From the IMG/VR virus record IMGVR_UViG_3300048550_000801, positions 1 through 24,339 of that record: a DNA stretch of 24,339 bases, one strand, 5' to 3'. Positions 485 to 19,200 of the stretch are shown piece by piece. Source of the stretch: a virus. Both the position numbers and the translations under genes were made by a program. Each line of letters starts with the position of its first letter. Positions within the stretch are counted from its first letter, which is position 1. A model generated the notes under the pieces. That model did not search any database, had not been told where the DNA came from, and worked only from the letters and a program-made list of their open reading frames with translations.

Positions 485-886
485 ATGGCGCTTCCACGGG
501 TTTCTAGAGCATTTAAAGACATCAGTCTATCTTTTGAACCACATCCCGTGACAAAAGATTTGCCAATATTGAAAAACGAATCTGCAATACGTAGATCCAT
601 TATGAATTTGGTACAAACGATTCCTGAAGAGAGGTTTTTTGAACCTCTTTTAGGATCAGATGTACGTTCTAGTCTATTTGACTTCGTTGATTTTGCTACT
701 GCATCGGTTATTCAAGAACAAGTCCTTGAAACGATTGAAAATTTTGAACCAAGAGTTGATAATACTATTGTAGAAGTTGATCCACAACCAGACTCAAACT
801 CATTTGATATAACAGTTATATTTGATATTGTTGGTCTTGAGTTTCCGACACAAGAATTTTCATTTTTACTAGAGGCAGCAAGGTAA
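485..886 (+). CDS. 25: Baseplate wedge protein gp25
   Basis: This is a 133-residue protein; T4 gp25 is about 132 residues. gp25 is a small core component of the contractile-tail baseplate wedge. It binds the gp6 dimer and nucleates sheath polymerisation, and it is related to the TssE-type proteins of type VI secretion. Visible family features are the PEERFFEPLLGSDVRSSLF segment (residues 47-65), matching the usual R-x-x-x-P-x-x-GS-x-x-x-x-LF pattern, and the EPR motif at residues 88-90 (ENFEPRV), the hallmark of the family. The start is chosen because MALPRVSRAF is a sensible N-terminus and AGGA lies just upstream (478-481), although the spacing is short. Four bases separate it from gp6, its direct structural partner. 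I see nothing unusual in it. Confidence 0.92.
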   Translation: MALPRVSRAFKDISLSFEPHPVTKDLPILKNESAIRRSIMNLVQTIPEERFFEPLLGSDVRSSLFDFVDFATASVIQEQVLETIENFEPRVDNTIVEVDPQPDSNSFDITVIFDIVGLEFPTQEFSFLLEAAR

Positions 887-890
887 TAAT

Positions 891-2804
891 ATGCCTTTTA
901 CCAAATTTACAAACCTAGACTTTGATCAAATAAAGGTCTCAATCAAAGATTATTTGAGAGCAAACTCAAACTTTAGTGATTTTGACTTTGAGGGATCTAA
1001 TTTTTCGGTCCTTATCGATACGTTAGCATATAATACTTACATAACGGCGTTCAACTCCAATATGATCGTTAATGAATCCTTCTTGGATTCTGCGACATTG
1101 AGAGAGAACGTCGTTTCTTTGGCAAGAAATATTGGTTACGTACCACGCTCTAGAAGCGCTGCACAGGCAACAGTAGGATTTGACATAACCACTAAGGTTT
1201 CTTCCTCTACACTGACCTTACAGGCGGGTCTAGTGTGTGTTGGGAATACAAATGACACAAACTTTGTATTCTCAATTCCAGAAGATGTTACTACAACCAT
1301 CAATTCTGGTACCGCATCATTCGATGATCTAAAAATCTTCCAAGGAACGTTCCTTAAAAAGACTTTTATCGTTAATGGATCTGTGGATCAGAGATTTATC
1401 CTTGACAATTCATTCATCGATACATCAACAATCATCGTAAAAGTAAAGGGTATTGCTGATACTGGTGAAGGAAGAGAATATTCATTAGCATCAAATATTA
1501 TAAACCTGAATCAAGAATCTGAAATCTTTTTGATTCAGGAAGTTCAAGATGAAAAGTATGAACTGTTGTTTGGTGATGGATATTTTGGTAAAAAATTAGA
1601 AGATGATGCAGTCATTACGGTGTCTTATATCATCACTGATGGTAAGGACGGTAATGGACCTAATAACTTCTCCTTCTCTGGTAGGGTTATTGATAGTGAT
1701 GGAGGCATTGTTATTCCTTCATCAGCAATTACAATCGATACTACTATTGCTGCATCCAATGGCGGCGATATTGAACCTGTCGAATCGATCAAGTATTTTG
1801 CTCCTAGAATCTATGCTTCGCAGAACAGAGCAGTAACAACTCGTGACTATGAAGCAGTTATTCAATCAATCTACCCTAATACAGAGTCTGTTTCTGTTGT
1901 TGGTGGCGAAGAGTTAGATCCACCACAGTTTGGTAATGTTTTGATCAGCATCAAACCAAAGAACGGTAACTTTATTTCTGACTTTGATAAACAAAATATT
2001 CTTTCAAAATTAAAAGATTTTAGTATTTCTGGTATCAATCAAAAAATAATTGATCTGAAGGTTCTTTTTGTTGAGATTGATAGTGCTGTTTATTATAACA
2101 GTTCGCAAGTTACAAGTATTAATGATTTGAAGACAAATGTTAATACGGTTTTAAACACTTTTTCCACATCAAATGTTAATCAGTTTGGTGGTAGGTTTAA
2201 GTATAGTAAGTTAGCACAGACGATTGATAATGTTGATGATGCTATTTCATCCAACATTACTCGTATTAAGATTAGAAGAAATTTAAATTCATTATTAAAT
2301 GCACCAACACAGTATGAACTGTGTTATGGCAATCAATTTCATATTAACGAAAGTGGATTTAATATCAAGAGTACTGGATTTACAGTCTCTGGCAGCACTG
2401 ATGTGTTTTACTTCACTGATGTTCCCAATACCGAAGCAAGTGGAAAACTGGACGGAAGTGGTAAAGGCATTCTTGTTATCACTAGAGATAACAAAAATGT
2501 AGGAGGTAATTATGTAATTGACAGAACACTCAATCCAATTGGTACTGTTGATTACACTAAAGGTGAGATTATAATTAATACCTTAACTATTACATCTACT
2601 GAAAAGGATAATAACGTTATTGAGATTCAAGCAATTCCAGAATCAAATGATGTTATTGGTTTGAAGGATCTTTATCTCTCCTTTGACGTTGCAAATAGTA
2701 AGATAAATATGGTGAGAGACACCATTACATCTGGTGAACAGACATCGGGTGTAGGATATAAAACAACATCGAGTTACTTAAACGGGGAACTAAAGAGGAT
2801 ATAA
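891..2804 (+). CDS. 6: Baseplate wedge protein gp6 (baseplate J-like)
   Basis: This is a 637-residue protein close in size to T4 gp6 (about 660). gp6 is the structural backbone of the wedge: dimers from neighbouring wedges join into the continuous ring around the hub, bound to gp25, gp7 and gp53. The N-terminus (residues about 1-100) has the typical layout for this family, with an FDQIKVSIKDYLRANSNFSDFDFEGSNF-like opening (only partly shown here in order), then a helix-rich part with LIDTLAYNTY and SFLDSATLRENVVSLARNIGY. The middle holds the J-like beta/helix region with the NRAVTTRDYEAVI segment near residues 308-320. The C-terminal ~150 residues are beta-rich with a VDYTKGEIII segment. It follows gp25 by four bases and ends one base before the next gene. 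No frameshift or truncation is seen. Confidence 0.92.
   Translation: MPFTKFTNLDFDQIKVSIKDYLRANSNFSDFDFEGSNFSVLIDTLAYNTYITAFNSNMIVNESFLDSATLRENVVSLARNIGYVPRSRSAAQATVGFDITTKVSSSTLTLQAGLVCVGNTNDTNFVFSIPEDVTTTINSGTASFDDLKIFQGTFLKKTFIVNGSVDQRFILDNSFIDTSTIIVKVKGIADTGEGREYSLASNIINLNQESEIFLIQEVQDEKYELLFGDGYFGKKLEDDAVITVSYIITDGKDGNGPNNFSFSGRVIDSDGGIVIPSSAITIDTTIAASNGGDIEPVESIKYFAPRIYASQNRAVTTRDYEAVIQSIYPNTESVSVVGGEELDPPQFGNVLISIKPKNGNFISDFDKQNILSKLKDFSISGINQKIIDLKVLFVEIDSAVYYNSSQVTSINDLKTNVNTVLNTFSTSNVNQFGGRFKYSKLAQTIDNVDDAISSNITRIKIRRNLNSLLNAPTQYELCYGNQFHINESGFNIKSTGFTVSGSTDVFYFTDVPNTEASGKLDGSGKGILVITRDNKNVGGNYVIDRTLNPIGTVDYTKGEIIINTLTITSTEKDNNVIEIQAIPESNDVIGLKDLYLSFDVANSKINMVRDTITSGEQTSGVGYKTTSSYLNGELKRI
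2702..2709 (+). promoter_or_regulatory. Weak candidate late promoter box inside gp6, before the gp7-like gene
   Basis: GATAAATA, one mismatch from the T4 late consensus, lies about 97 bases before the giant gene and inside the gp6 coding region. The position is reasonable for extra transcription of the giant gene, but the match may be fortuitous because the codons there (AAG ATA AAT ATG) are ordinary. Confidence 0.2.
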
Positions 2805-2805
2805 G

Positions 2806-5800
2806 ATGATACAAACTGGATTTGAGCAGAGGGTTAAGGTTCAGCAGATTATTGGAAGTCAACTACCTGAATTCTTACGCGCCGAAAGTCCCAAATCTAT
2901 TGATTTTCTGAAGCAATATTATATCTCACAGGAATACCAAGGTGGTCCTTCTGATATTGCAGAAAATCTAGATCAATATTTGACACTGGATAACTTCAGT
3001 CAAGAAGTTATTTCTGGTAAGACGACGCTATATTCTGATATTTTATCAACTACAGAGGATATCCAGGTCTACTCGACCAAAGGATTTCCAAATGAGTATG
3101 GTCTGTTTAAAATTGGTGATGAGATTATCACCTACACAGGTCTAACTACAAATACTTTCACTGGATGCATTAGAGGCTTCAGTGGTATTCAGACACATAG
3201 AACTGATTTAAATCGTGAAGAGTTAGTATTCAAGGAAACAAATAAAACTTCTCACGGTAGTGGCACAGAAGTAGAGAACTTGAGTGTACTCTTTTTACAA
3301 GAGTTTTACAAAAAGTTAAAATATACGTTCACTCCAGGATTAGAAAATTCAAAGTTTGTAGATGATCTTGATGTTAACAACTTCATCAAAGAGTCAAATG
3401 CTCTCTATAAGGCAAAAGGTACAAAGGAATCATTTAAAATTCTGTTCAATGTTCTCTATGGTGAGACACCAACAGTTATAGATCTTGAAAGATATCTCTT
3501 CAAACCATCTGATGCACAGTTTAGTAGAAGAGAAGTAGTTATTGCAGAAAGGATTTCTGGAGATCCAAATAATCTTGTTGGACAAACAATCATAAACTCT
3601 GCAGATTCTGCAACAAAAGCATCAGTTTCTGAAGTTGAGATCTTTACAAGATCCGGTATTGGTACATATTTCAAATTAAATCTGTTTGTTGGTTTCACTG
3701 ATGCAGATACTGTTGAGGGAAATTTCAAAGTTCAACCTAAAGTAAAGGCAATCAATGCAGTATCTGTAGGTTCATCTATTATTACAGTAGATTCTACTGT
3801 TGGTTTTGGATCAACAGGTACGATTATTTCTGGTAACAACAGCATTTACTACAACGAAAAAACGGTCAATCAGTTCTTGCAATGTACTGGTGTTGATGCG
3901 GCAATCGGAGTTTCTGATGACATTAGGCAAGACCAAGTATTCTTTGGTTTTGAAAATGGCGATGTAACAAAGAAAGTTGAACTTCGTATCGGTGGAGTTC
4001 TTTCCAACTTTGAAGCGGTTGGAAACCCTTCTCTAGTATCACGGGGACAAATCATTCGTGTTAAAAATGTTGGTGAGGTAATCAAAAATCCAGAGACTAA
4101 TAAGTCATTTAAAGAAATATTTGCAAACTCCTGGATTTATAACACTCCAGTCAGGTTTGAAGTTGATTCAATCCGTGGTTCAACATACACTCTCAGATCT
4201 ACAATTGAAAAGTCAAGTCTGAAAGTTGGTGATACTGTAGATATTCTGGAGGGTTCAACACAGACTGTTGCAGTAGTAGGGGCAAAAATCCAGACTGTAA
4301 GCGTAACTAAGAAGGAAGTAACACTGGGAAGTCTTGGCGGATTTACTCCAGCAGCGGGTGTAGAGTATAGTATCAGAAGAAAACTTAATACATCTTCTAG
4401 TACAGGAGTTGCTCTAGCATATGATGGCGTAACTTCTGATGTTCAGAATGTTTATCTTGAGAATGAAGAAACATTCTATGTTGCAGCAAACTCTTTGCCA
4501 TCTTATGAGATCACTAAAGATATTGAATCTGCAACCATTCCTACTGCTAGTGGTAGTGCATTAGAAAATTTCAATACAAACACCTTAAGATATACAACTC
4601 TTTCATTCCCATCCAGTGTTCCATTTATAACTGGAGATGAAGTTCAGTATACTGCATCAGATAATCTGTTAATAGGTCTTGTGGAGAAGACATATTATGT
4701 GAAGGTATTGAATCCTGATAATAAAATAGAACTATATGAATCACCCTCTTTCATTGAAAGTAGTACTCCTATCGGATTTGAATCACTAAGTGCAGTAGGT
4801 TCTCATACATTTACTTTAGCATCACAAAAAAGTGGATCTCTGCAACCACAAAGACTTCTTAAGAAGTTTCCCAACAGTCAGAACATCAAGAATGCTGTTG
4901 GTGCAGAAACACTTCCAGGAACCATCGGTATGTTGGTGAATGGTGTTGAAATTTCAAACTATAAGTCATTTGATAAGATTTTCTTTGGACCAATCAAAGA
5001 AGTGATTCGTCTTAATACTGGGGATGATTATGATGTTATCAATCCACCTAATGTAACACTCGGAGACTCTGTTGTTAGTGGTGGGACTACAGCGTTGATT
5101 AGACCTGTTATTAGAGGATCTGTCAAGTCTATTCTGGTTGATCCTCAAGACTTTGACATCCGTAGAGTTCAATCAGTCACCATTAGTGGCGGAAACGGAT
5201 CTGGAGCGATATTAGAACCTATCCTTGATACAAAGTATCGTGAGATTGAATTTGATTCAAGAGAGAGTACTGTAGGTGGTGGTATCGATATTGGTGATGA
5301 CACTATCACTTTCCCCAAAAATCATAAATTGAGGAATGGTGACAAGGTTATATACAACAGAAATGGAAATGCAGAGATTAGTATTGGATCATTTAATGGT
5401 AGTAACACCAATCAAACGTCAACTCTTCACAGTGGGTCTGCATATTTTACTGAAATAGTTAATACATCGACTATCAAGTTGTATGAAACTTTTGATGATT
5501 TTAATTCTGGCATCAGCACTGTAGGATTTACAACGTCGATTACTCAAGGTATTCACAAATTTAGACTGTTTGATCCCAAACAAACTCTACGTGAAATTAG
5601 AGTTATTAATCCAGGAAGTGGATATGAGAACAGAAAACTAACTGCAAAACCTGCAGACATTTCAACTGCTTACGGCACGGTCAATTTCCATAATCATGGA
5701 TTCAAAGATGGTGATATTGTTGTTTATACTGCCGATACCACTGCTATCGGTGGTCTTACGAGTGGAAATGAGCACCATATTCTCAAATTAGATAATAACT

Positions 5801-8800
5801 CCTTTAGGTTAAGTGATCCTGGTGTCGGTACAACTGCATTTACAAACAATTATAAGAGAAGAAAGTTTGTAGAATTCACTACACCTGGTGTTGGTAACCA
5901 CAATTTTGCTTATAGAGACATTAGTCTGACAATTGACGCAGAATTTGATGGCGTAACAGGTGTAATTACTGCTACTCCACAGGTTAGAGGTGAAATTGTT
6001 GACCTTTACCTTTACGAAACAGGCACTGGATACGGTTCAACCATCCTAAACTTCCACAAACTCCCCGATGTTACCTTCAAATCTGGTAAAGATGTTGAAA
6101 TCAAACCAATTATCATTGGTGGAAAGATTATAAATGCTCAAATTACCAATTCTGGAACAGAATACACTAGTGCACCAGATTTAACCGTCAATGGTGTGGG
6201 TATTGGAGCAAAATTAAGAGCAGTTGTTGAAAATGAAAAGGTCAAATCCATTATCGTCCTCAATGAAGGTGTTGGATATGACGCCAATACTTCGATTGTA
6301 GCAACATCTATCGGAAGTAAAGCATCTGCTAGAGCATCTGTTAGAGATTTGACAATTGATCATAACGCAAGATTTGGTAATGAACTCGTTTCAGAGGATG
6401 CAACGGGTCTGAAATACAATCTGGTAGGATATAGCACCCAGATTGGCGGAAATGCCTTCCAGGACGCTGTAGGCACCCACTCACCAATCATTGGTTGGGC
6501 ATATGATGGTAATCCGATCTATGGACCTTTTGGATATGCAAATCCATTGAATAATAACTCTGATGTTGTTCAGTTAAACACTGGATATATTAGATCTACT
6601 TCCGATGTTACCGATAGACCATCAGGTTTTGCTGATGGATTCTTTGTAGAAGATTACAAATACGACAATTCTGGAAATCTGGACGAATATAATGGCAGAT
6701 TTACAAAAACACCAGAATTTCCCAATGGTGTCTATGCATATTTTGCAGGAATTTCCACTAATTTTGCAAATGGTACCACACAACCAGAATTTCCATACTT
6801 CGTCGGCAATGTTTACAGATCGACACCTATAACTCAGGATGTAGATCAAACTTTTGATTTTAACTCATCAAAACTGAGGAGAAATACCCTCCCATACAGA
6901 GCAGATTCACTATTTGCTTCAAATGACTTTATTATTGAACCAAATGAAGTTATTGCGCAGAGAGCAGTTGTTGATTCTATTACAAAAGGTTCTGTAACTG
7001 ACTTTAAAGTAATTGAATCTGGATCTGGATATGCTGTAAATGATGTCGCAAGTTTTTCTGGCCAAGGCGGTCTTTCAGCATATATCTCTAAGATTAAAGG
7101 AAAACGTATTGTTGATGTTAATACTACAACAGAGACTTTTACTGACTGTGTAGTTACCAGGTTTAATGATTCTGAAGTCAAGTTGACATTCACATCAACT
7201 CATAACATCAATGATCAAGATAGCATCGCTATTTCTGGACTTTCGACATATATCAAGGGTCTGACTAAGACACATACTGTTGGTGTTAGTAGTGAAAGGT
7301 CGTTCCTGATTGCTGATGTTGCCGCAAATGCAACTTCAGGATTTGTAACTGATATCTACGTTTCCAATATTCCAAAAATTGTCTCTGTAGGATCTACAAT
7401 CGGTATTGGAACTGAAAGACTGTCTGTCCTTAATGTTTATGATGGAAGCAAGGTTCTGAGAGTTGCTAGAGGTCTCTCCGGTGCCGGACACACATCATCT
7501 ACATCAGTCAAAGAGGTTAGCAACACAATTATAGTTCCTCTGAGCACCAAAAACTTTTCATCTGACGTAAATGAAAAGTATTTCTTCAATGCAGCAACAC
7601 AACTTGGTATTGGTGCTACTGCAGGAATCGGTGTCTCGTTTGTATATGCTGTTGGAGAAAATTCAGAATCTATTTCGATTCCAACTCAAAGCATTTTTCT
7701 ACCAAATCACAAATTTAAAACGAATCAACCTGTTGTCCTTGCTGCTCCAGTTGGTGCTTCCAAGATTTCAGTATCTAACACTCCATCTAGCACGACATTC
7801 AATATTCCAAACTCTACAACAGAGAATCTGTTTGTAATTAATAAAGGAAGAGACTTTATTGGTCTTGCGACTCAAGTAGGAGTTACTACAAATGGATTAT
7901 TCTTAAGGTCGTTTAGTCCAAATGGTGATAGTGACGATTACAAGTATTCTATTGCACCTCGTTTTAATCAAGTAACTGCAAAAGCACAAAGAATCACTGC
8001 ACAGGTTGCTGTATCCACAGATCATGGACTTGCTCACGGAGATGCAATTTTTCTGGACTTGAGACCAAACCTTTCAGTCGGTATTGGAGTATCTACAGGC
8101 ATTTTGGTCAAGAGAAATGCTGATGATGAAAAATTGCTTGTTAATCCTATTGGATTTACTTCAGCGGTAGTTGGAATTGCTAAGAGTGAACTATCAATTA
8201 CTGCACATGGATTCAATACTGGCGAGAAAGTACTCTACAATTCTTCAGATTTGATCGTATCTGGTCTTCAAACAGGTTCTTACTATGTTTATAGAATTGA
8301 TGATGATACTATTCAACTGAGTGAAACATATAACGATTCTATTTCAACACCACCAACGATTGTAAGTTTTGCATCAACTGGTGGTGCAGGTCAAGAGTTG
8401 GCAAAAATTAATCCACAAATTCCTGTCATTAAGAATAACAACCTCGTATTTGATCTATCGGATGAATCTTTGAGTGGATATAACTTTAAAATTTTCTGTG
8501 ACAATCAATTCCACAACGAATTAGTATCAGTTGGTGGAACAGTAACAGACTTTAGTGTAACTGGTGTTGGAACAATCGGCATCGGAACCACAGGAACTGG
8601 AACACTTACCCTGAAGCATAGTTCTCAACTTCCATCAAAACTTTACTATGGTCTTGAAAAGGCAGGATACATTAGTAGTGCCGATACTTTTGTAAAAAAT
8701 TATTCAGAAATTATTTTTGTCGATAGTAAGTATTCTGGCAATTACGCAGTTTCTGGTATTGGAACTACAGCATTCCAGATTGCACTGAATCAAGTTCCAG

Positions 8801-11800
8801 AAAATTCTACTTATGTTGCATCCGATTTGGCATTTGCAGAGTATATAACAAATTCGCCAACTGCTAGAGGTGGTGTCCATCAGATGAAGATTACCTCTGG
8901 TGGTGAAGGTTATGAGAATCTTCCAGAATTTGTAAGCATTGCATCAACTTCGGGCATCAATGCGACGATTCTTCCAGTCTCTAAAACGATTGGAAATATT
9001 AATGAAGTGACAATAAAGGATCAAGGATTTGATTTCTCTGCAGATAAAACCTTAAGTCCAGAAGCATTTGTTTCTTCAAACTATCGTTTGAAAAATAGAA
9101 ATACTATTAGTTCAATTAATGTTATTGGTGGTGGTCAAAATTATATTTCTGCACCCGATCTGGTAATTGTAAATCGTGATGGTGATAAAATAAATTCGGG
9201 TGTTTTAGAAGCAACTCTTCAGGGATCATCAATTATTTCCGCATCCGTCTCTGCTACACCTAAAGGATTAAGTGAGGTTATTAATACAGTTTTTGCTATC
9301 AATAATACTAATGGTGTTGGAATCGATAGTTGCACATCATCTCCTGCAGGTATTATAACTTGTAGATTGCAGACACCTATTCTTGGATTCAACACAACAC
9401 CATTTGCTGTTGGAGATAAAATCTTTGTTGAAGGTATCGCAAAACTTGGAACTGATGGCGAAGGATTTAATTCTTCGGACCACGGATTCCAGTTCTTTCC
9501 TGTTACCAAGTTTACTAATACAAACCCCGCTGAAATTGAGTTTGATATAACAGGTATTGCCACCAACGCGGGTATTGCTGTTACCACACAGAACTCATAT
9601 GCAACTTTAATCCGTCAGTCCAACTATCCAACTTTTGAAATTATTCAAACACCTTCAGAACTTGTTGTCGGTGAACAAATTCTCACTCTCGATACAGCAA
9701 CAAATAATTTTGTTTTGCGAGATCTAAATGTTGTTGAGAATACTGGAGAACTTCTGAAGATTTATGGATCTTACGATCTTTCTCCTGATGAAAAAATTCT
9801 TGGAAAGACTTCAGGAATAGAAGTAACGGTTGACTTCATTGAAGAAAATAGAGGTTTATTCAATATCGATTATTCACTTGAAACTAATATTGGATGGCGC
9901 GAAGAGACTGGAAAACTGAATCAAGATTCCCAAGTAATACCTGACAACGATTACTATCAAAATCTTTCATATACTGTTAAGAGTTCGCAACCATTTGAGA
10001 CGATTATTGATCCTGTAAATAGACTGCTCCATACTTCAGGTATGAAGAATTTTTCTGATACTGTAATTAGTAGCACTATTAATGCTGGTATTGGAACTAC
10101 TATTTCTTCAAATAGTATAGCACTTCTAGATATCATCAGTGATAAGAGAGTAGATGTAGTCAAGTCTTTTGACTTTGGTCTTGATGTTGATGTATTAGAT
10201 GGAAAATCGAAGTTCGTTAAACTTGAAAATAAAAAACTTGCAGACTTCATTAAGTGTGATACAAACAGAGTATTGACTATTGATGATGTTAGGAATGAGT
10301 TCTCTAATAGTGAAGATACTGAGGATCTTTTTGTCAATCTTGATTCTATTAATATTAATGAAGGATATGCAAGATATCTACTTCAGGTGAGAAGTGTTGA
10401 CGGCAATGAATTTCAGGCGACTGAAGTTATAGTTGTTCCTTCACAAGATAAAAAGTCTTTACTGACAGTTGAGAAAGCAAACGTTACTATTGGACAAGCA
10501 AACAATAACAATACAAATACAACACTCAGTCTTGGCAGTTTTATTGCAGATACTGATAACTTAGCATTGCAGTTTGCCCCAACCGAACAATTTAATACGG
10601 ATTATGATATTAAGATTCTTAAAAATGAATTCAATACAACTCTGACTGGTATTAATACAAGAACAGTTGGTTTTGCAGATCTTGTTGGCGTTACAACCAC
10701 AGTTGGTGTAGGAACAACAGTATCTTTGATTGTTAGAGATGTAGATACTACTGAAGGTGTTTATGCGAATGTTGAAGTTATTAATAAAGTATCTCAGTTG
10801 AGAACAATTGTTGAACTGTATATGGACCATGATGGATCCGATACATTTGTTTCCGAGTTTTACTTTGATAATGATGGAACTACTGAGGCATCTGATAACT
10901 TCATTGGAACCTTTAGAGGGAATATCAACTCTGGTGTTCTTTCACTAGACTTCACTAACAGCACTGAAAGTGACTCAGTTCTTGTTAGAACTAGAGCAGT
11001 TGGATTTGGATCAACATCTGTCGGTGTTGGAACTTATAGATTCCTTGCAACATCACAACCAGCAGAGACTGAAAAATCCGGAAGACTTCAAACTAACTTT
11101 GCACAAACGGTTGGCATTTCTACTCCTATCAGTGTTTCCAACTCTGATGTAACAACTTTGAAAACACTTGCAAGAGTTGGATATGGAAATACCTCTGCAC
11201 TACATCAACTACTGGTAATACACGATGGATCATCAGCTTATACCGTACAATATCCTTATCTTTCCATTGGAAGTACCAGTGGAATTGGAACATTTGGGGC
11301 AAACATTAGCAGTAATGATCTGTTATTAAACTTCTTCCCAGATTCTACAATCTCTGGATCTCAAGAGATTGTGGTTCAAACTTATACTGAAGTTCTACAA
11401 ACTGCTAGAGATAATGATAATGTTGCCAATATTTTAACATATGGTCCAATAAATGAAAAACTGACTGTAAGTGGTTATAACTCTCTTAATGGTGAAAGAA
11501 GCAATGCCACTGCATTTGAGATGGAGCACGAAGGCATTCCTATTTTTGCGAAGACCTTCAATCCAGCAGAGACTACTGTCCTCGATAAGGGAACTGGCAT
11601 CTTTACCATTGAAGATCACTTCTTCCAAACTGGAGAGCGTCTGATATATGAACCAGGTTCAACTTTCGCCGGTGTTGCTGGAACTGCAATTAATCGTGCA
11701 GGAACCAGTGTTGGACTTGCAACAGAAGTATATGCAATTAGATTAAATTCTGATCAGTTTAAGATTGCAGAATCTGCAGCAAATGCAAACACTGGAACTG

Positions 11801-14703
11801 GGGTTACCTTTACCGATAACGGTGGTGGTAATGCTCACACCTTTGAGATGTTTAAGAAACTTAGCAAGTCTATTGTTTCTATCAGTGGTATTGTTCAAAG
11901 TCCGATTGCATTTACAGACATCAATTATGATCTGACTGATAATGGCGGATCTATTACCGGTCTAACATCATTCTTCTCAGTCTCGGGTATTTCATCCATC
12001 TTATCTGGAGATATCTTTAAGGTTGATGATGAATATATGAAGGTTGAAAGTGTGGGTCTTGGAACTACATCTGTTGGTCCAATTTCTGGAACTGGTAGTT
12101 TCAACCTTGTTAAGGTTGAGAGAGGATTTGTTGGAACTTCCGCTGCAGCGCACGATGATGGTGCTATAGCAAGAATCTTTATTGGTTCGTTCAATATTGT
12201 TAAGAATAAGATTCATTTCACAGAAGCACCAAGAGGTGATCTGGGACAATTAATTAGTCTCGACAATCTACCTAAACCAAAGTCTTCATTTGGTGGAAGA
12301 GTATATCTTAGACAAAACTATGCCACCAATCAGGTATTTGATGATATCTCCAAAGACTTTACTGGGATTGGTAAAACCTATACTGTAACTGTTGCTGGAC
12401 TCAACACAACTGGTATCGAAACTGGAAGTGGTGTTGTTTTTATTAACGATATCTTCCAGAAACCATCAACTGACAATAATATTGGAAACAATTATGAATT
12501 TGATCAAGGTCCTACTGGAATCTCTAGCGTTATATTTACTGGTATCACTTCATCTAACGGTCAATTGATGATCTCTGAAGATAATATTAACAAGAATCAA
12601 CTTCCTAGAGGTGGTGTCATTGTTTCTCTTGGATCTACACCTGGTCTTGGATTTGCACCTCTGGTTGGTGCTGCTGTAACCGCAGTTGTATCTGGCGGTG
12701 CCATTCAATCTGTTGGTCTTGGAATCACTGATATTCACGGATCTGGATATCGTGGTGCATCAGTTTCAATCGGAATCACTGAGTTTGGTGGATCACCTGG
12801 AACTGGTGCGAATGTTTCTGCAGTCGTTGGTGCTGGTGGAACTCTGATCTTTACTGTTAACACTCCTGGATCTGGATATACAAATCCAATCGTAAGTATC
12901 CCTGCACCATCATATGAAAATCTTGAAGTTGTTGGTGTATCACGTCGTGGTATTGGACCAACAACAAAAACTGGTACGGGTCTGCTTCTGACTCTTGATG
13001 TTGGTTCTGCTTCTACAACGGGCATCGGATCAACTTTATTCGAAGTTAAGAGTTTCGATATTGTTAGAAATGGATACTCATTCTTACCTGGTGATAAGTT
13101 CAAACCAGTTGGACTGGTAACTGACAAAGGACTCTCCTCACCACTTGCAGATTTTGAACTGGAAGTTCTTGATACTTTCACCGATTCGTTCTCCTCTTGG
13201 TCATTCGGTGAGTTGGACTTTATTGATCCAATCTCAGATCTTCAGGATGGATCGAGAACAAGATTCCCACTCAACTATGAGGGTGAATTGTTGAGTTTTG
13301 AACTGGGAGAAGATCCAGACTTAGATCTTAACGCAGTTCTATTGATCTTTATCAACGGTGTTATTCAAGAACCTGGTTCTCATTATCAGTTTACTGGTGG
13401 TACATCATTCAGGTTTGTAACTGCACCCAAAAAAGAAGATAATATTTCAGTCTTCTTCTACAGAGGAACACGCGGTATTGATAGTACTTCGGTTGAAATT
13501 GTCGAAACCATTAAAGAAGGTGATGAACTACAACTGATGCAGTTTGGTAATGTTGATACTCAAAATCGCAGAAGCATTGTAGGTATCGTTACTTCAGACT
13601 TAGTTGAAACAAATCTATATCCCGGTGAAGGTGTTAGTGATACAATTTCCAGACCATTTGACTGGTATAAGCAAAAGGTAGATAAGTTTATCAATAATAA
13701 CTTTGTCTTTAAGACAAGACCTTCTATTGAACCACACATTTATCCAACTGCAAGAATTATTGGCGATATTTCATCTTCTTCTAGTGAAATTTTTGTTGAT
13801 AATGCACAATTCTTCAACTATGAAGAAAATGAGTCTTCAATCATTATTGATGATGTAGATGCTCTTATTGTAAATGGTGGTTCTTCGGATCCAGTAGCAG
13901 CAGCAATTACTGCAACTGTTGGAACGGGTGGAACAATTAGTGCTTTGACAATCACCACCGGTGGTTCAGGTTATGTTGGATCTGCAGTAACAATTTCACT
14001 CTCCTCACCTAAAACTATTGGCGTTGGTGTTGGGACGACTGCTTCTGCAACTATTCCAGTTGTAAATGGTGCTCTGAGTGGAACTGCTAACATTACCAAT
14101 CCTGGATTTGGATACAATGCTTCCAATCCTCCATTGGTTCTTTCTCCTACACCTAACCCAACATTTGAAAATATTACTTCTATTGATATTGTTCAAGGTG
14201 GTGCAGGTATTGTTACTGGCATTACAACCGTTATCGGAACTGGTGGTCAGGGAACTCTGGGTCTCAAGTTCTTCCTAAATGCTGCAAGCAATAACGAGTA
14301 TTCAAACTTTGCAAATGGTTATCCAATCTTTATTTCTGACACTATTGTCGGTCGTGGGGTAACTTCTATCAACAACTCTCAAGACATTGCAGTTGTTGGT
14401 GTAGGAACAACCTTTGTTGATAATATTTACATCGTCAGAAACTTCTCTGCTTCTGCGGCGAATGCAGAGTTTATTGCTGACATCCTTTCAACCACAGCGT
14501 CAAGTGCAGAAATATCTGCAACTGGATTCGTCACTTGTGGAAGATTCTCTTGGGGTCGTCTCGCGGGCATCTCAAGATCAAATTCACCAATCTCTATCGG
14601 TGTTACGGGTCTTACATTCTCAGGTCTCAGTACATATCCAACTATTCAAAGAAGAACATTTGGACACAGAGACTCTGGTGCTCTTAGAAACGATCTAGCA
14701 TAG
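2806..14703 (+). CDS. Giant gp7-like baseplate wedge protein, 3,965 aa
   Basis: One unbroken frame encodes 3,965 residues (roughly 420 kDa). AGAGGA (2794-2799) gives a clean ribosome binding site. Residues 1-270 appear related to the C-terminal part of T4 gp7: a helical lead-in, then KAKGTKESFKILFNVLYGE (about 202-220) and LVGQTI at 257-262, in the order and spacing I recall for gp7. The position between gp6 and gp8 is also that of T4 gene 7. The rest is a beta-rich mosaic. It contains an RG module at about 79-130 and again near 1526-1560 and 3066-3115; GSGY-type repeats (Tyr 742, 940, 1076, 1120, 1158, 1409, 2036, 2113, 3315, 3358, 3723, 3770); H-G-x-x-x-G-D repeats (His 840, 964, 1740, 1801, 2938); a YHYH-like domain at about 1200-1345; three related sandwich repeats at about 2521-2866; and two NGV-Q modules at about 3178-3255 and 3470-3555. 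The C-terminus (3929-3965) carries the YPTIQRR segment. The likely role is the wedge-to-periphery, host-facing part of the baseplate. The gp7 assignment is inferred; a structural role is near certain. Confidence 0.85.
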   Translation: MIQTGFEQRVKVQQIIGSQLPEFLRAESPKSIDFLKQYYISQEYQGGPSDIAENLDQYLTLDNFSQEVISGKTTLYSDILSTTEDIQVYSTKGFPNEYGLFKIGDEIITYTGLTTNTFTGCIRGFSGIQTHRTDLNREELVFKETNKTSHGSGTEVENLSVLFLQEFYKKLKYTFTPGLENSKFVDDLDVNNFIKESNALYKAKGTKESFKILFNVLYGETPTVIDLERYLFKPSDAQFSRREVVIAERISGDPNNLVGQTIINSADSATKASVSEVEIFTRSGIGTYFKLNLFVGFTDADTVEGNFKVQPKVKAINAVSVGSSIITVDSTVGFGSTGTIISGNNSIYYNEKTVNQFLQCTGVDAAIGVSDDIRQDQVFFGFENGDVTKKVELRIGGVLSNFEAVGNPSLVSRGQIIRVKNVGEVIKNPETNKSFKEIFANSWIYNTPVRFEVDSIRGSTYTLRSTIEKSSLKVGDTVDILEGSTQTVAVVGAKIQTVSVTKKEVTLGSLGGFTPAAGVEYSIRRKLNTSSSTGVALAYDGVTSDVQNVYLENEETFYVAANSLPSYEITKDIESATIPTASGSALENFNTNTLRYTTLSFPSSVPFITGDEVQYTASDNLLIGLVEKTYYVKVLNPDNKIELYESPSFIESSTPIGFESLSAVGSHTFTLASQKSGSLQPQRLLKKFPNSQNIKNAVGAETLPGTIGMLVNGVEISNYKSFDKIFFGPIKEVIRLNTGDDYDVINPPNVTLGDSVVSGGTTALIRPVIRGSVKSILVDPQDFDIRRVQSVTISGGNGSGAILEPILDTKYREIEFDSRESTVGGGIDIGDDTITFPKNHKLRNGDKVIYNRNGNAEISIGSFNGSNTNQTSTLHSGSAYFTEIVNTSTIKLYETFDDFNSGISTVGFTTSITQGIHKFRLFDPKQTLREIRVINPGSGYENRKLTAKPADISTAYGTVNFHNHGFKDGDIVVYTADTTAIGGLTSGNEHHILKLDNNSFRLSDPGVGTTAFTNNYKRRKFVEFTTPGVGNHNFAYRDISLTIDAEFDGVTGVITATPQVRGEIVDLYLYETGTGYGSTILNFHKLPDVTFKSGKDVEIKPIIIGGKIINAQITNSGTEYTSAPDLTVNGVGIGAKLRAVVENEKVKSIIVLNEGVGYDANTSIVATSIGSKASARASVRDLTIDHNARFGNELVSEDATGLKYNLVGYSTQIGGNAFQDAVGTHSPIIGWAYDGNPIYGPFGYANPLNNNSDVVQLNTGYIRSTSDVTDRPSGFADGFFVEDYKYDNSGNLDEYNGRFTKTPEFPNGVYAYFAGISTNFANGTTQPEFPYFVGNVYRSTPITQDVDQTFDFNSSKLRRNTLPYRADSLFASNDFIIEPNEVIAQRAVVDSITKGSVTDFKVIESGSGYAVNDVASFSGQGGLSAYISKIKGKRIVDVNTTTETFTDCVVTRFNDSEVKLTFTSTHNINDQDSIAISGLSTYIKGLTKTHTVGVSSERSFLIADVAANATSGFVTDIYVSNIPKIVSVGSTIGIGTERLSVLNVYDGSKVLRVARGLSGAGHTSSTSVKEVSNTIIVPLSTKNFSSDVNEKYFFNAATQLGIGATAGIGVSFVYAVGENSESISIPTQSIFLPNHKFKTNQPVVLAAPVGASKISVSNTPSSTTFNIPNSTTENLFVINKGRDFIGLATQVGVTTNGLFLRSFSPNGDSDDYKYSIAPRFNQVTAKAQRITAQVAVSTDHGLAHGDAIFLDLRPNLSVGIGVSTGILVKRNADDEKLLVNPIGFTSAVVGIAKSELSITAHGFNTGEKVLYNSSDLIVSGLQTGSYYVYRIDDDTIQLSETYNDSISTPPTIVSFASTGGAGQELAKINPQIPVIKNNNLVFDLSDESLSGYNFKIFCDNQFHNELVSVGGTVTDFSVTGVGTIGIGTTGTGTLTLKHSSQLPSKLYYGLEKAGYISSADTFVKNYSEIIFVDSKYSGNYAVSGIGTTAFQIALNQVPENSTYVASDLAFAEYITNSPTARGGVHQMKITSGGEGYENLPEFVSIASTSGINATILPVSKTIGNINEVTIKDQGFDFSADKTLSPEAFVSSNYRLKNRNTISSINVIGGGQNYISAPDLVIVNRDGDKINSGVLEATLQGSSIISASVSATPKGLSEVINTVFAINNTNGVGIDSCTSSPAGIITCRLQTPILGFNTTPFAVGDKIFVEGIAKLGTDGEGFNSSDHGFQFFPVTKFTNTNPAEIEFDITGIATNAGIAVTTQNSYATLIRQSNYPTFEIIQTPSELVVGEQILTLDTATNNFVLRDLNVVENTGELLKIYGSYDLSPDEKILGKTSGIEVTVDFIEENRGLFNIDYSLETNIGWREETGKLNQDSQVIPDNDYYQNLSYTVKSSQPFETIIDPVNRLLHTSGMKNFSDTVISSTINAGIGTTISSNSIALLDIISDKRVDVVKSFDFGLDVDVLDGKSKFVKLENKKLADFIKCDTNRVLTIDDVRNEFSNSEDTEDLFVNLDSININEGYARYLLQVRSVDGNEFQATEVIVVPSQDKKSLLTVEKANVTIGQANNNNTNTTLSLGSFIADTDNLALQFAPTEQFNTDYDIKILKNEFNTTLTGINTRTVGFADLVGVTTTVGVGTTVSLIVRDVDTTEGVYANVEVINKVSQLRTIVELYMDHDGSDTFVSEFYFDNDGTTEASDNFIGTFRGNINSGVLSLDFTNSTESDSVLVRTRAVGFGSTSVGVGTYRFLATSQPAETEKSGRLQTNFAQTVGISTPISVSNSDVTTLKTLARVGYGNTSALHQLLVIHDGSSAYTVQYPYLSIGSTSGIGTFGANISSNDLLLNFFPDSTISGSQEIVVQTYTEVLQTARDNDNVANILTYGPINEKLTVSGYNSLNGERSNATAFEMEHEGIPIFAKTFNPAETTVLDKGTGIFTIEDHFFQTGERLIYEPGSTFAGVAGTAINRAGTSVGLATEVYAIRLNSDQFKIAESAANANTGTGVTFTDNGGGNAHTFEMFKKLSKSIVSISGIVQSPIAFTDINYDLTDNGGSITGLTSFFSVSGISSILSGDIFKVDDEYMKVESVGLGTTSVGPISGTGSFNLVKVERGFVGTSAAAHDDGAIARIFIGSFNIVKNKIHFTEAPRGDLGQLISLDNLPKPKSSFGGRVYLRQNYATNQVFDDISKDFTGIGKTYTVTVAGLNTTGIETGSGVVFINDIFQKPSTDNNIGNNYEFDQGPTGISSVIFTGITSSNGQLMISEDNINKNQLPRGGVIVSLGSTPGLGFAPLVGAAVTAVVSGGAIQSVGLGITDIHGSGYRGASVSIGITEFGGSPGTGANVSAVVGAGGTLIFTVNTPGSGYTNPIVSIPAPSYENLEVVGVSRRGIGPTTKTGTGLLLTLDVGSASTTGIGSTLFEVKSFDIVRNGYSFLPGDKFKPVGLVTDKGLSSPLADFELEVLDTFTDSFSSWSFGELDFIDPISDLQDGSRTRFPLNYEGELLSFELGEDPDLDLNAVLLIFINGVIQEPGSHYQFTGGTSFRFVTAPKKEDNISVFFYRGTRGIDSTSVEIVETIKEGDELQLMQFGNVDTQNRRSIVGIVTSDLVETNLYPGEGVSDTISRPFDWYKQKVDKFINNNFVFKTRPSIEPHIYPTARIIGDISSSSSEIFVDNAQFFNYEENESSIIIDDVDALIVNGGSSDPVAAAITATVGTGGTISALTITTGGSGYVGSAVTISLSSPKTIGVGVGTTASATIPVVNGALSGTANITNPGFGYNASNPPLVLSPTPNPTFENITSIDIVQGGAGIVTGITTVIGTGGQGTLGLKFFLNAASNNEYSNFANGYPIFISDTIVGRGVTSINNSQDIAVVGVGTTFVDNIYIVRNFSASAANAEFIADILSTTASSAEISATGFVTCGRFSWGRLAGISRSNSPISIGVTGLTFSGLSTYPTIQRRTFGHRDSGALRNDLA
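3040..3195 (+). repeat. First 'RG' module of the gp7-like giant (protein-level repeat)
   Basis: Residues about 79-130 have the pattern 'GLFKIGDEIITYTG ... FTGCIRGFSG ... TH': a strand pair with G-D/E-E-x-x-x-Y, then a strand ending in RG, then a turn with a small residue and His. Related copies occur at about residues 1526-1560 (GIGTERLSVLNV ... VARGLSGAGH) and 3066-3115 (VDDEYMKVESV ... VERGFVGTSAAAHDDG). A further copy lies in the 2,358-residue protein near 22200-22340 (INNEVIFYDS ... GTRGID ... RSH). It is probably a small beta module reused in baseplate proteins. It interrupts the gp7-like N-terminal region. Confidence 0.55.
4981..9183 (+). repeat. Dispersed GSGY-type protein repeats, first cluster
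   Basis: This stretch of the giant gene encodes repeated units of the form 'hydrophobic strand, two or three residues, G-x-G/E-Y, four to six residues, P-x-hydrophobic strand'. Clear copies have the key Tyr (or Phe) at residues 742 (TGDDY), 940 (PGSGY), 1076 (TGTGY), 1120 (SGTEY), 1158 (EGVGY), 1409 (SGSGY), 2036 (GGEGY), 2077 (QGFDF) and 2113 (GGQNY). Copies at 1076, 1120 and 1158 are spaced about 40 residues apart, as are those at 2036, 2077 and 2113. This regular spacing suggests stacked beta units. Other domains, including the YHYH-like one, are inserted between clusters. Confidence 0.6.
6403..6840 (+). other. YHYH-like domain within the gp7-like giant
   Basis: Residues about 1200-1345 contain the ordered motifs of the YHYH family: HSPIIGWAYDGNPIYGPFGY (1225-1244), then LDEYNGRF, then PEFPNGVYAYFAG (about 1303-1315). 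The classical motif after the Gly-Val/Thr is YHYH; here it is YAYF, so both His are missing. Domains of this type occur in marine phage structural proteins and in bacterial secreted proteins, and their biochemical role is unclear to me. Loss of both histidines argues against a metal or catalytic function depending on them. A structural or ligand-binding role in the baseplate periphery is more likely. I am sure of the motif pattern, less of the domain edges. Confidence 0.65.
10366..11403 (+). repeat. Three related ~80-residue beta-sandwich repeats in the gp7-like giant
   Basis: Residues about 2521-2620, 2664-2747 and 2798-2866 share one pattern. It opens with a strand (YLLQVRSVDGNEFQ, IVELYMDHDGSDTF or HQLLVIHDGSSAY), followed by T-E or S-E/Y plus a second strand. 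Next comes a 'G-S/T-F-x-A/G-x-I/N' turn (GSFIADTDN, GTFRGNINSG or GTFGANISSN), a strand L-x-L-x-F, and a final strand. Copies 2 and 3 share the D-G-S core. This looks like internal duplication of one sandwich domain. The DNA copies are well diverged, so the duplication is old. A structural, possibly carbohydrate-facing, role is inferred only. Confidence 0.55.
12640..14190 (+). repeat. Second GSGY repeat cluster plus NGV-Q module near the giant's C-terminus
   Basis: The C-terminal third has further GSGY-type units with key Tyr at residues 3315, 3358, 3723 and 3770. Each is preceded by a 'G-G-x-I/L strand' unit such as SGGAIQSV, GAGGTLIFTV or GTGGTISALTI. The 12-base string ggatctggatat encodes the motif identically at 12739-12750 and 12868-12879, and also in the first cluster at 7021-7032. 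Between the pairs lies a module with DLQDGSRTRFPL and LLIFINGVIQEPG (NGVIQ at 3517-3521). A degenerate relative (VVFINDIFQKP, N3214) sits just before this cluster. NGV-Q modules of this type recur in phage tail-fibre proteins. Confidence 0.55.
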
Positions 14704-14731: not shown

Positions 14732-16279
14732 ATGGCGGCCATTGTAACAGATCAGTTTAGAATATTGAATGCGGAAAATTTTGTAAATTCCGTTACAAAT
14801 ACTTCTAATTCATATTATGTCTTTGTAGGATTGGCAAATCCTACAGAAAGTGGTTTTGGAAAATCCTCTACTTGGGACACAAACACTCCAAGTCCTATTG
14901 ATAACTTTGAGTATCAAGGATTTGTAAGTGATAATATGTCTTTTGGTAGGAAAATTACTTCCGCAAACGTTAGAAGAGTTGTTAGAAGAATAAATTGGGT
15001 TCAAGGAACGCGATATGAAATGTATCGCCAAGATTACAGTATTAATAGTCTGTCTCCAGTATCTAAATCTGCAAGACTATATGATTCAAACTACTATGTA
15101 ATGAATAGTGAGTTCAAAGTCTATACTTGTATTGATAACGGTTCTTCTGGTATCTCTACAACAGGCAGCGCATCTCTGGATGAACCAACCTTCACTGATC
15201 TTGAACCTTCAAAGGCAGGCGTTAGTGGTGATAAATATGTTTGGAAGTATCTGTTCTCAGTTCCTCCAAGTGATGTCATTAAGTTTGACTCTACAGAATA
15301 TATCACGTTACCTAATGATTGGGAAACAACAACCAATGCTCAGATTACTGCAGTCAGAGACAATGGTGACTCTACAGTTAATGAGAATCAGTTAAAGAAA
15401 ATTTATATTGATGAGCGTGGCGCTGGTTATTCTCAAGGAACTCACGAAGTAAGTATCTTGGGTGATGGTACTGGAGGTAAAGCAATCCTTGACGTTGATG
15501 CTCTGGGAAGAATTATTAGTGCATCAGTTTCTTCTGGAGGTAAGAATTATTCTTACGCAATGGTTGATCTTGGATCAATCAACTCTAGTTCTACAACCAA
15601 AGCAAAACTGATTCCAATTATCCCACCCTCAAAAGGTCACGGATATGATATTTACCAGGAATTGGGTGCAGAAAGGGTTCTCCTTTATGCACGTTTTGAT
15701 GATTCTACTAAGGATTTTCCAATAGATACGACAATATCTCAAATTGGTATTGTTAAAAATCCAACTTCTGTTGGTTCTACTGCAGTATTTGTGGATAATC
15801 AATATTCGTCACTGGGAGCAATCAAGTTTACGACAACTTCGGGCACTCTTGCGATAGGTGATGCTCTTAGTCAGACTGTGAGTGGTGGAACTGCTAAAGG
15901 ATATGTTTTTTCATATGACACAGAAACCAAAGTTGTTAAGTATGCTCAGGACAGATCACTATTCTTGAATCCAACAACATTTGATCAAACTGATTATGTT
16001 GGAGTGACAACTTCTGCCCGTGTTTATGAATTTGCTTCAAACGCAAACGCTGTGACTAGCGACAATGGTTTCTCAGGAACAGTTCATCAAGCATTTACTG
16101 GAGTTTCAACTAATCCAACAGGATCAAAGATTATCTCCTTAGGTGTTGTGTTTAACGATGGTGTTGCAACACCAGAGATAAATAATGGATCAGGGGATAT
16201 TATTTACATTGACAATAGACCTGCAATCTCTAGAAATTCTAGACAAAAAGAAGACATTAAAATTATCCTGGAATTCTAA
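14732..16279 (+). CDS. 8: Baseplate wedge protein gp8
   Basis: This is a 515-residue homologue of T4 gp8 (about 334 residues), a dimeric wedge protein that joins gp7 and gp10 to gp6. The N-terminus MAAIVTDQFRI is typical of marine T4-like gp8. Motifs shared with T4 gp8 as I recall it are GDKYVWKYLFSVPPSD (166-181), then T-E-Y-I-x-x-P, an ISQIGIVKNP strand (335-344) equivalent to the T4 ISIITNP region, and a C-terminal IIYIDNRPAI plus QKEDIKIILEF ending. The extra length relative to T4 includes two GSGY-type repeats near residues 230-300 (GAGY at 230-233, then GGKNY), the same repeat type as in the neighbouring giants, and a beta insert between 345 and about 470. No good ribosome binding site is visible before the ATG. 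The next gene starts four bases after the stop. Confidence 0.9.
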   Translation: MAAIVTDQFRILNAENFVNSVTNTSNSYYVFVGLANPTESGFGKSSTWDTNTPSPIDNFEYQGFVSDNMSFGRKITSANVRRVVRRINWVQGTRYEMYRQDYSINSLSPVSKSARLYDSNYYVMNSEFKVYTCIDNGSSGISTTGSASLDEPTFTDLEPSKAGVSGDKYVWKYLFSVPPSDVIKFDSTEYITLPNDWETTTNAQITAVRDNGDSTVNENQLKKIYIDERGAGYSQGTHEVSILGDGTGGKAILDVDALGRIISASVSSGGKNYSYAMVDLGSINSSSTTKAKLIPIIPPSKGHGYDIYQELGAERVLLYARFDDSTKDFPIDTTISQIGIVKNPTSVGSTAVFVDNQYSSLGAIKFTTTSGTLAIGDALSQTVSGGTAKGYVFSYDTETKVVKYAQDRSLFLNPTTFDQTDYVGVTTSARVYEFASNANAVTSDNGFSGTVHQAFTGVSTNPTGSKIISLGVVFNDGVATPEINNGSGDIIYIDNRPAISRNSRQKEDIKIILEF

Positions 16280-16282
16280 AAA

Positions 16283-19200
16283 ATGCCACAAAAAACGAAT
16301 CTCAATATAAGCCCATATTTTGATGATTTTGATAAGGACGATAACTTTTATCGTGTCCTATTCAAACCAGGATTCCCTGTTCAAGCGAGGGAATTGACGA
16401 CTCTGCAATCTATTTTGCAGAATCAAGTAGAAAACTTTGGTAGTCATATTTTCAAAGAAGGATCGATGGTGATCCCTGGAAATATTAGCTACGATGGTGA
16501 ATATACTTCTATAAAAATTAACTCCGACTACTTAGGAATACCTGTAACGGCGTATGTAGATAAACTAATAGGAAAGAGACTGAGGGGACAAACCTCAGGT
16601 GTAACTGCTAGTGTTGATAAATTTCTGGATGTTTCTCCTGCAGAAGGTATCACAGATTTAACTCTATTTGTTGGATATCATAGTTCTAATGAATCTGGAG
16701 AAATTGCATCATTCGATGATGGTGAGGTTCTGATTGTTGAAGAAGGATTTACTTACGGAAACACTTCTGTTAATGCAGGAGATGTGGTTGCTACGGTAGT
16801 ATCTGAAGATTCTGCTTCTATTGGTAGTAATGTTTCTATCGGCACTGGTGTTTATTTTATTAGAGGAACATTTGTTGATGTTGCCGCAGATAAAATTGTT
16901 CTGGATGCATATAGCAATAATCCATCCTTTCGAGTTGGTCTAGAAATTATTGAAGAACTCATCACCGCAAAGGATGATGATTCTCTATATGATAATGCAA
17001 AGGGATTTTCTAACTTTGCTGCACCAGGTGCAGATAGATTAAAGATTTCTACAAAACTTTCTAAAAAACTTCTAACTGATTACGACGACAAAACTTTTGT
17101 CGAATTACTTAGAATTGAAGATGGTGAAATAAAGAAGTTACAGAATAGTTCTGTTTATAGTATTATCAAAGATTACTTTGCAAAGAGAACCTTTGAAGAG
17201 TCTGGAGACTATTCTCTTGGAAACTTTGGTGTTAGTACATCAGAGATCTTAAACGATAGAATGTCTAACGAAGGTGTATATTTTGAAGATCAAATAACTG
17301 ATCAAGGTAATACTGCTTCTGAAGACCTGTATGCAGTAAAACTTTCTGCAGGAAAGGCATACGTCAAAGGATTTGACGTAGAGACTATTTCAACAACAGT
17401 TGTTGATGTAGAAAAACCAAGGGATACAAGATCAGTATCAGATGCTTTGGTTCCATTTGAGTTTGGAACAGTATTAAGACTGAACAATGTCAATGGTTCT
17501 CCTTTCATTGGTGTTAATAATAATGATAATATCGTAAATCTATTCAATCAAAGAAAGACAACTGCAAACGCAACTGCTGGTTCTGGAACTCAAGTTGGTA
17601 GGGCAAGAGTTTATTCTTATGGTTTGACTGATAGCGCATATTCAAATGCATCATCAAAGTTTAATCTTTCTCTGTTTGATGTTCAAACTTTTACGGAACT
17701 TACTCTCAACTCTTCAGTAACAAATGCACAACTTCCAGACTCTTCATTTGTTGAGGGTGTAAGCAGTGGTGCATCAGGTTTTGCAAATGCTCAGGGCGGT
17801 GGTAGTGCTACAGTCAACCTTGTTCAAACAACCGGAACCTTTATTGCTGGAGAACAATTAAAAATTAATGGAACTTCTTTAGTTTCAAGATCTGTAACCA
17901 GCGTTAGAACTTTTGGTATTGAAGATGTTAAGTCTGTATTCCAAGATTCTACTGCAGTTGATTCAGAATTAAAATCTGATTTCTCTGGCGACCTAATTTT
18001 GCAGAAAAAGACTGCACCAAACTTCAGTATTGCAGATCAAATTACTATCAGTAATGCTGGTATTGCTACAGTTGCTGGTAAAAACTTTGTTGGTATTAAG
18101 AAAGATTCAATTGTCAGATACCAGACCTCATCTCTTTCAGTTCCAACATTCAACAGAGTCTCTGCAGTTGCTGCTGATGGATTAACAATGACACTGGCAG
18201 CAACCACTGATGTTGCCAATGTTTGTGCTGGTCCTATAACTGAAGGAACAGTTAATTTTACAATTGGTGCCCCTATTGTAAGAAATAATGGTGGTATGTA
18301 TGCATCTTTAGAAGAAACTAGTGTTGCTACCGTTGGTCTTTCTGGATCAAATCTTACTGTAACCACTCAAATCAGAGAAAAGTCTACTAATGATTCTGGA
18401 GAACTGAGTCTGGTTCCTGGAGATACTGGTATTACTAGTTCTAGATATGAGACATTTGATGCTGATCGTTACTCAATTCACTATTCTGATGGAAGCATTG
18501 AAGATCTAACCTCAGATCAGTTTAGTTTAGGAACTGATGGTAATGTCACGATCACAGGTTTGACAGCATCACAGTCAAGTAATGTTACTGTTAATGCAAC
18601 TGTCAAGAAGATTGGTATAAGCGAAAAAAGAAAAGATTACATCAGAAGTGAAAAGATTAATATTAATCAATGTAGAACTGGAGTTACAACTTCTCTGACA
18701 GGACTTACACAGAGCAATTTCTACGGAACAAGGATTGAGGACAAAGAAATCTCACTCAACGTTCCTGATGTTGTAAAGGTTATTGCTGTCTATGAAGCAC
18801 TCGATATCAATATTCCTGTATTAGATAAATTAATCTTCCCATCTGGACTTGCTCTAGATACAAATTCTATTCTTGGTGAGAAGATTCTTGGTAAGGAGAC
18901 TGGTGCTCTAGCACAGATTGTCACAAGATCTTCTGCAACAGAGGTTGAGATTGTATATCTGAATGATTCCAAATTCTCTATTGGAGAATTGGTGAATTTT
19001 GAAGAGTCAAACATCAATTCTATTATTTCTAACATCACTATTGGTAACTATCAAAATGTAACTGATCACTATACTCTAGACAAAGGACAGAGAGAAGAGT
19101 TCTATGACTATGGACGTATTGTTAAATCCAATGATGGATATACTCCGACACGCAGACTGCTTATCATTTTTGATTATTATCTAGTTCCTAGCAATGACAC

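Follow-up and report, generated by a model that had tools for sequence, protein, structure and literature searches.

A 3,965-residue phage protein encoded between gp6 and gp8 is very probably a gp7 orthologue whose baseplate wedge core is split by insertions

Cyanophages and pelagiphages rank with the most abundant marine viruses. A core bundle and trifurcation fold is common to gp6, gp7, TssF and TssG (PMC6300606). Sullivan et al. 2010 (PMC3037559) placed gp7 in the non-cyanophage core and noted it as highly divergent, and a 2020 pelagimyophage survey described T4 gp7 as absent from cyano- and pelagimyophages and seemingly substituted by VrlC (PMC7029224); the premise of a sequence-only reading of the present locus, that gp7 counts as missing in marine T4-like phages, is correct for that part of the literature. 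A gp7 label for homologues of the protein described here is not new, since GenBank already names the P-SSM2 and P-HM1 proteins 'gp7, baseplate wedge initiator'; other relatives are labelled 'structural' or 'hypothetical protein'. One homologue, of 6,619 aa, was detected by mass spectrometry in purified virions of S-SZBM1 (71 peptides, 13.5% coverage; PMC9146016). No publication describing a split gp7 core was found in the literature.

The window analysed here, a stretch of 24,339 bases that is itself a whole virus record, carries wedge genes in T4 order:

485..886, plus strand: gp25-like wedge protein
891..2804, plus strand: gp6-like wedge protein (Pfam Gp6-like_1st 1.4e-17; Gp6-like helical domain)
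2806..14703, plus strand: giant protein of 3,965 aa, the proposed gp7 orthologue, in a single open frame without internal stop (phrog_2885 'baseplate wedge subunit', E=0)
14732..16279, plus strand: gp8-like wedge protein (Pfam Phage-Gp8 1.4e-12)
16283-23359, after gp8: DUF4815 protein of 2,358 aa (Pfam 9.3e-59; phrog_358)

The slot of gene 7, between gp6 and gp8, is filled by the giant open reading frame. We consider it very probable (about 0.9) that this frame encodes the gp7 orthologue of the phage, a single-copy partner in the (gp6)2-gp7 wedge, with a core split by insertions within one chain. The first 280 residues matched 470 phage records, the closest annotated relatives being cyanophages. 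The DUF4815 protein lies at the position of the 'VrlC protein' gene in HTVC008M, P-HM1 and Syn19, whose product is the one proposed as gp7 substitute (PMC7029224). Further downstream, a 112-aa ORF at 23745-24083 resembles phrog_3304 'L-shaped tail fiber protein assembly' (2.2e-32).

A closer comparison of the N-terminal part with T4 gp7, for which the NC_000866 record served as reference throughout, confirmed the two motifs that had been claimed from the sequence, in the same order as in T4 gp7 and with a similar spacing (53 residues in the giant protein and 43 in T4):

3415..3459, plus strand: KGTKESFKILFNVLY, residues 204-218, equivalent to T4 gp7 738-752 (KGIEASYKFLFKVLY)
3574..3591, plus strand: LVGQTI, residues 257-262, equivalent to T4 gp7 781-786

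Taken by itself LVGQTI is weak evidence, since strand motifs of this G-x-T/I kind are found repeatedly in such proteins, and it was dropped as a stand-alone proof of homology; most of the signal comes from the KGT segment. A BLASTP comparison of residues 1-280 with T4 gp7 aligned residues 149-262 of the giant protein to T4 676-786 (E=3e-4). A phmmer search of the PDB with residues 1-280 as a single sequence found nothing relevant, and profiles were therefore needed. The N-part profile was built from 18 non-T4 sequences (the window family, P-SSM2, S-H9-1, the HTVC008M family, Melnitz, Cr30, DLP6, and YB07 with its relatives). Against the whole PDB this profile, made without T4-type sequences, ranked gp7 first (9f4a, 1.2e-6; 5hx2/5iv5, 6.6e-6), the next unrelated entry reaching only 0.4, and in the complete T4 genome it matched a single place, 84992-85336 in gene 7 (E 1.7e-8). 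Profile-profile comparison with six T4-type gp7s gave a probability of 97.8% and an E value of 8e-13 over T4 639-814, which bears out the homology that the sequence-only reading had proposed for this part. The hhalign score of 70.4 stood against a maximum of 33.3 for 399 of 400 column shuffles; the remaining one scored 134 on a degenerate 16-column end alignment, judged to be an hhalign artefact and set aside. Comparison with seven other T4 baseplate proteins (gp53, 5, 6, 8, 9, 10 and 11) gave scores of 14.5 or less. A gp6-like nature of the N-terminal hairpin was also considered and rejected, as the profiles match gp7 and not gp6. Homology was thus found for the N half of the gp7 C-terminal core (T4 ~645-800), and these sequence comparisons support homology between the first ~285 residues and the last third of T4 gp7. 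No counterpart of the T4-specific N-terminal ~640 residues was found, the match beginning at T4 ~639-645; this region is T4-type rather than a defining feature, because shorter gp7 relatives are also without it.

The core is not complete at the N-terminus. The claim that the gp7 core is retained there stood for the residues up to ~285, and failed for the core as a whole, since the piece equivalent to T4 862-906 lies at residues 2331-2434. The resulting arrangement along the chain is as follows:

2806..3000, plus strand: gp7 core island I, residues 1-65, a predicted helical hairpin (H5-19, H22-27, H29-43) equivalent to T4 gp7 ~645-700 (core-bundle hairpin)
3001..3270, plus strand: insert 1, residues 66-155, a beta-barrel-like module
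3271..3660, plus strand: gp7 core island II, residues 156-285, helices with the KGTKESFKILFNVLY and LVGQTI strand region, T4 gp7 ~701-800
3661..9795, plus strand: insert 2, residues 286-2330, inside the gp7 core
9796..10107, plus strand: gp7 core island III, residues 2331-2434, with DNDYYQNLSYTVKSSQPFETIIDPVNRLLHTSG, T4 gp7 ~847-906 (SYYVMKIKSNLPSSRWKSDVIRFVHPVG)
10108..14703, plus strand: C-terminal extension, residues 2435-3965, for which no T4 gp7 equivalent was found

In island III the segment DNDYYQNLSYTVKSSQPFETIIDPVNRLLHTSG lies around residues 2380-2412 and its T4 counterpart SYYVMKIKSNLPSSRWKSDVIRFVHPVG at about 861-887, the conserved T4 862-906 stretch reading SYYVMKIKS...FVHPVG. A C-part profile of 15 non-T4 sequences spanning this stretch found gp7 as the best PDB entry, but with an E value of 0.011 (862-908; next entry 0.81), the match to T4 resting on ~45 residues. 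Compared by hhalign with the T4-type gp7 alignment, the C part gave 2.8e-6, and a six-frame search of the complete T4 genome returned gene 7 only (85643-85777, E 8.6e-4), downstream of the N-part match and thus in the same order as in the giant protein. We therefore regard homology of the C half of the core (T4 ~860-906) as found too. Each of the three recognizable stretches of the core is found a single time in the window protein, in T4 order. Island III occurs exactly once per giant protein, and in 14 other contigs a distance of 2,329-2,374 residues separates the N and C parts, which share one reading phase.

It could be argued that the complete gp7 core is N-terminal, that everything after ~285 was appended and that the HPxG segment (2331-2434) has no relationship to gp7. 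The N-part match is strong by itself, and the narrow window-family C part hit T4 gp7 at the right place at an insignificant level (hhalign score 19, E 0.21), so that the C-part match gains significance only with more diverse relatives. The wider profile, however, ranks gp7 top in the PDB and has gene 7 as its sole match in T4, in order, and the HPxG segment is present once per giant protein and stands only ~330 residues after the N part in short relatives. We consider this explanation very unlikely. The earlier proposal that ~3,700 new residues were simply added to the core is rejected because island III was found at 2331-2434: this position implies that ~2,050 residues were inserted within the core, while ~100 lie at 66-155 and only ~1,530 follow the core.

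The split core can be followed among relatives by three landmarks (the first-helix proline, the KG glycine and HPxG) placed by profiles. The distance from the proline to KG is 81-86 residues in T4-type gp7, Cr30, DLP6, YB07 and the rhizobial phage RHph_I34, ~180-190 in HTVC008M, Melnitz, P-SSM2 and the window, where insert 1 is present, and ~690 in Syn19 and S-SZBM1. From KG to HPxG there are 332-340 residues in proteins of 460-503 aa, 405-621 in those of 767-1,288 aa, 1,656 in S-H9-1 and 2,862 in S-SZBM1; the core of the window protein is not contiguous, with its halves 2,207 residues apart versus 147-149 in T4-type gp7. Because the short relatives grade into the split form, we regard the split as a variant feature and not as a ground for exclusion. 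In T4 and the rhizobial phages the extra sequence stands ahead of the core. All three islands are present, single and in order in Syn19 and in S-SZBM1, the latter being the homologue detected in virions. In Syn19_088 (6,483 aa) and S-SZBM1_208 (6,619 aa) the core pieces lie at 1-109, ~620-785 and ~3410-3580, and genes annotated gp9-like or structural stand between the giant gene and gp8.

Such a long interruption of the core invites the idea that the inserts are processed or removed, by protein cleavage or intein-like splicing, leaving a gp7 of normal size to work in the virion. Neither an intein nor a protease family appears among the Pfam or PHROGs matches, insert sizes change gradually along the ladder, and the 71 peptides of S-SZBM1, covering 13.5% of 6,619 aa, exceed what a ~300-residue core could yield. 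We regard removal of the inserts as very improbable, and retain the reading of a core split within one chain.

Structure models were inspected for the same regions. In the AlphaFold model of residues 1-300 (pLDDT 60), a helical hairpin is followed by a beta module at insert 1 and then by helices and strands. A Foldseek search of the PDB with this model gave T4 gp7 (9.6e-4) and Klebsiella phage KP1 gp7 (2.4e-3) as the top two entries, with low global TM-scores. The VIA-align matches listed for the same model are taken up by insert 1 (residues 68-162) and do not include gp7, an absence that does not count against gp7. Insert 1 is missing from T4 gp7, YB07 and Cr30, and its modelled fold has among its neighbours the phage JBD30 baseplate protein 8rk3_b (Z 6.3, 2.2 Å, 76 residues). 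In the model of a 503-aa relative (pLDDT 49), residues 97-432 superpose on T4 gp7 740-892 (56 residues, 2.5 Å, 30% identity, Z only 3.5), with global TM-scores below 0.2; both models are of low confidence. Since both halves of this protein superpose on that T4 segment, they come together in the model, a weak indication, though one that falls on just the residues expected.

The reciprocal comparison bears on orthology. A profile of T4-type sequences alone, searched against nine complete relatives, matched only the equivalent ORF in five (P-SSM2, Syn19, S-SZBM1, Cr30 and YB07) and nothing in the other four; this search for a second gp7 ran on complete relatives, the window itself being a 24-kb fragment. 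Links are also present among the PHROG profiles, which were built by others: T4 gp7 646-759 connects to phrog_2885 (the giant proteins), phrog_26741 and phrog_17744, and Cr30 662-738 to phrog_2885 2390-2464. Members of phrog_3465, phrog_26741, phrog_4406 and phrog_701 carry one or both gp7 core halves. Labels given to gp7-type proteins in PHROGs include 'head closure Hc2', 'unknown function' and 'head and packaging: virion structural protein'.

An alternative is that the protein is not the gp7 orthologue but another TssG/gpI-type or gp6-like wedge protein sharing the ancient hairpin and trifurcation fold, with VrlC or another protein acting as gp7. Such a reading draws on the fold shared among gp6, gp7, TssF and TssG (PMC6300606) and on the stated replacement of gp7 by VrlC (PMC7029224). 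It is opposed by the preference of the profiles for gp7 over gp6, by the gene slot between gp6 and gp8, by the lack of any second match to the T4 gp7 profile in those complete genomes that it hits, and by the presence of 'VrlC' as a separate ORF after gp8 in HTVC008M, P-HM1 and Syn19. Hence we give it hardly any probability and maintain the assignment to gp7.

The inserts and the tail contain recognizable modules:

6121..6297, plus strand: GxGY module, residues 1106-1164 (HMM iE 3.5e-5)
6412..6768, plus strand: YHYH domain, residues 1203-1321, within insert 2 (Pfam PF14240, E=5.3e-24)
6958..7299, plus strand: GxGY module, residues 1385-1498 (HMM iE 1.4e-6)
8839..9066, plus strand: GxGY module, residues 2012-2087 (HMM iE 2.1e-16)
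13894-14247, plus strand: weak GxGY match by HMM, residues 3697-3814, in the C-terminal extension

The YHYH match (85.7 bits, with a Pfam gathering cut-off of 25) covers only residues 1203-1321 and defines a domain, not the identity of the protein. The GxGY module at 2012-2087 is the last one upstream of core island III, an arrangement also seen in the short relatives. The confident part of the model of the 503-aa relative (220-372) superposes on residues 99-186 of the T4 sheath protein gp18 (Z 9.5, 2.0 Å, 73 residues), and the six best PDB entries for the GxGY sequence profile are tail sheath proteins (best E=0.0019). Thus, one type of insert module resembles a domain of the T4 sheath (gp18). 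Weak GxGY copies are also seen in the gp8-like and DUF4815 proteins.

In the arrangement that we propose, islands I-III of one polypeptide would come together as the wedge core alongside two gp6 subunits. In the core bundle the helical hairpin of island I would join a pair of gp6 hairpins; the gp7 arm of the trifurcation may be formed by the KGT helix, the strands and the HPxG helix. Both inserts and the C-terminal tail would leave the core at its surface and project outward as outer baseplate, where sheath-domain-like and carbohydrate-binding-like (YHYH) modules could offer contacts and attachment. More tentatively, and with somewhat less than even confidence, the periphery of marine T4-like baseplates could consist largely of insertions in the core of one wedge protein, grown stepwise (500 to 6,600 residues) from modules including sheath-like copies, so that six giant chains per virion would form most of the outer baseplate.

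If the assignment is right, a true gp7 completes the conserved wedge of cyanophages and pelagiphages, which contradicts the statement of its absence and substitution by VrlC (PMC7029224), and names such as 'head closure Hc2' or 'hypothetical protein' would be corrected. With the ladder from ~460 to 6,619 residues one could trace how a baseplate grows by internal insertion, and structural biologists would know the three short parts of a 400-700 kDa chain that belong in the wedge core.

Among the known systems, T4 gp7 (NC_000866 gene 7; PDB 5IV5, 5HX2) has the core pieces 645-760 and 862-906 ordered as in the giant protein and, like it, lies between gp6 and gp8. It differs in its length of 1,032 aa, its contiguous core (148 residues from KG to HPVG) and the ~640 residues in front, whereas the giant protein has ~2,150 inserted residues inside the core and a tail of 1,530 residues. 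P-SSM2 PSSM2_111, the 'gp7 baseplate wedge initiator' of 5,195 aa, belongs to the same family (~57% identity over residues 2-280), and it and P-HM1 gp7 (4,446 aa) have the same split, with 2,303 and 2,421 residues from KG to HPxG, respectively; unlike the window protein, both have longer inserts and tails and already carry the gp7 label in GenBank. Pelagibacter phage HTVC008M AGE60389 (1,016 aa, 'putative structural protein') has all core islands and a GxGY module, but only about 600 residues between KG and HPxG, and is labelled 'head closure Hc2' in PHROGs. Caulobacter phage Cr30 gp248 (767 aa), annotated as a baseplate wedge subunit, has both core halves, with 621 residues from KG to HPxG and without insert 1. 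Stenotrophomonas phage YB07 HWC11_gp256 (503 aa) and its relatives approach a minimal core, its halves separated by one GxGY region; the YB07 protein, annotated as hypothetical, differs from the giant protein in having neither insert 1 nor a long tail. Likened by role, Vibrio phage XM1 gp17 and T6SS TssG are gp7-type wedge proteins with the same function in a 2:1 wedge; XM1 gp17 has only 242 aa. The tail spikes of XM1 are borne by its gp7-type protein, on an inserted loop and on the C-terminus (PMC10457771), a precedent for inserts in a gp7 core serving the periphery.
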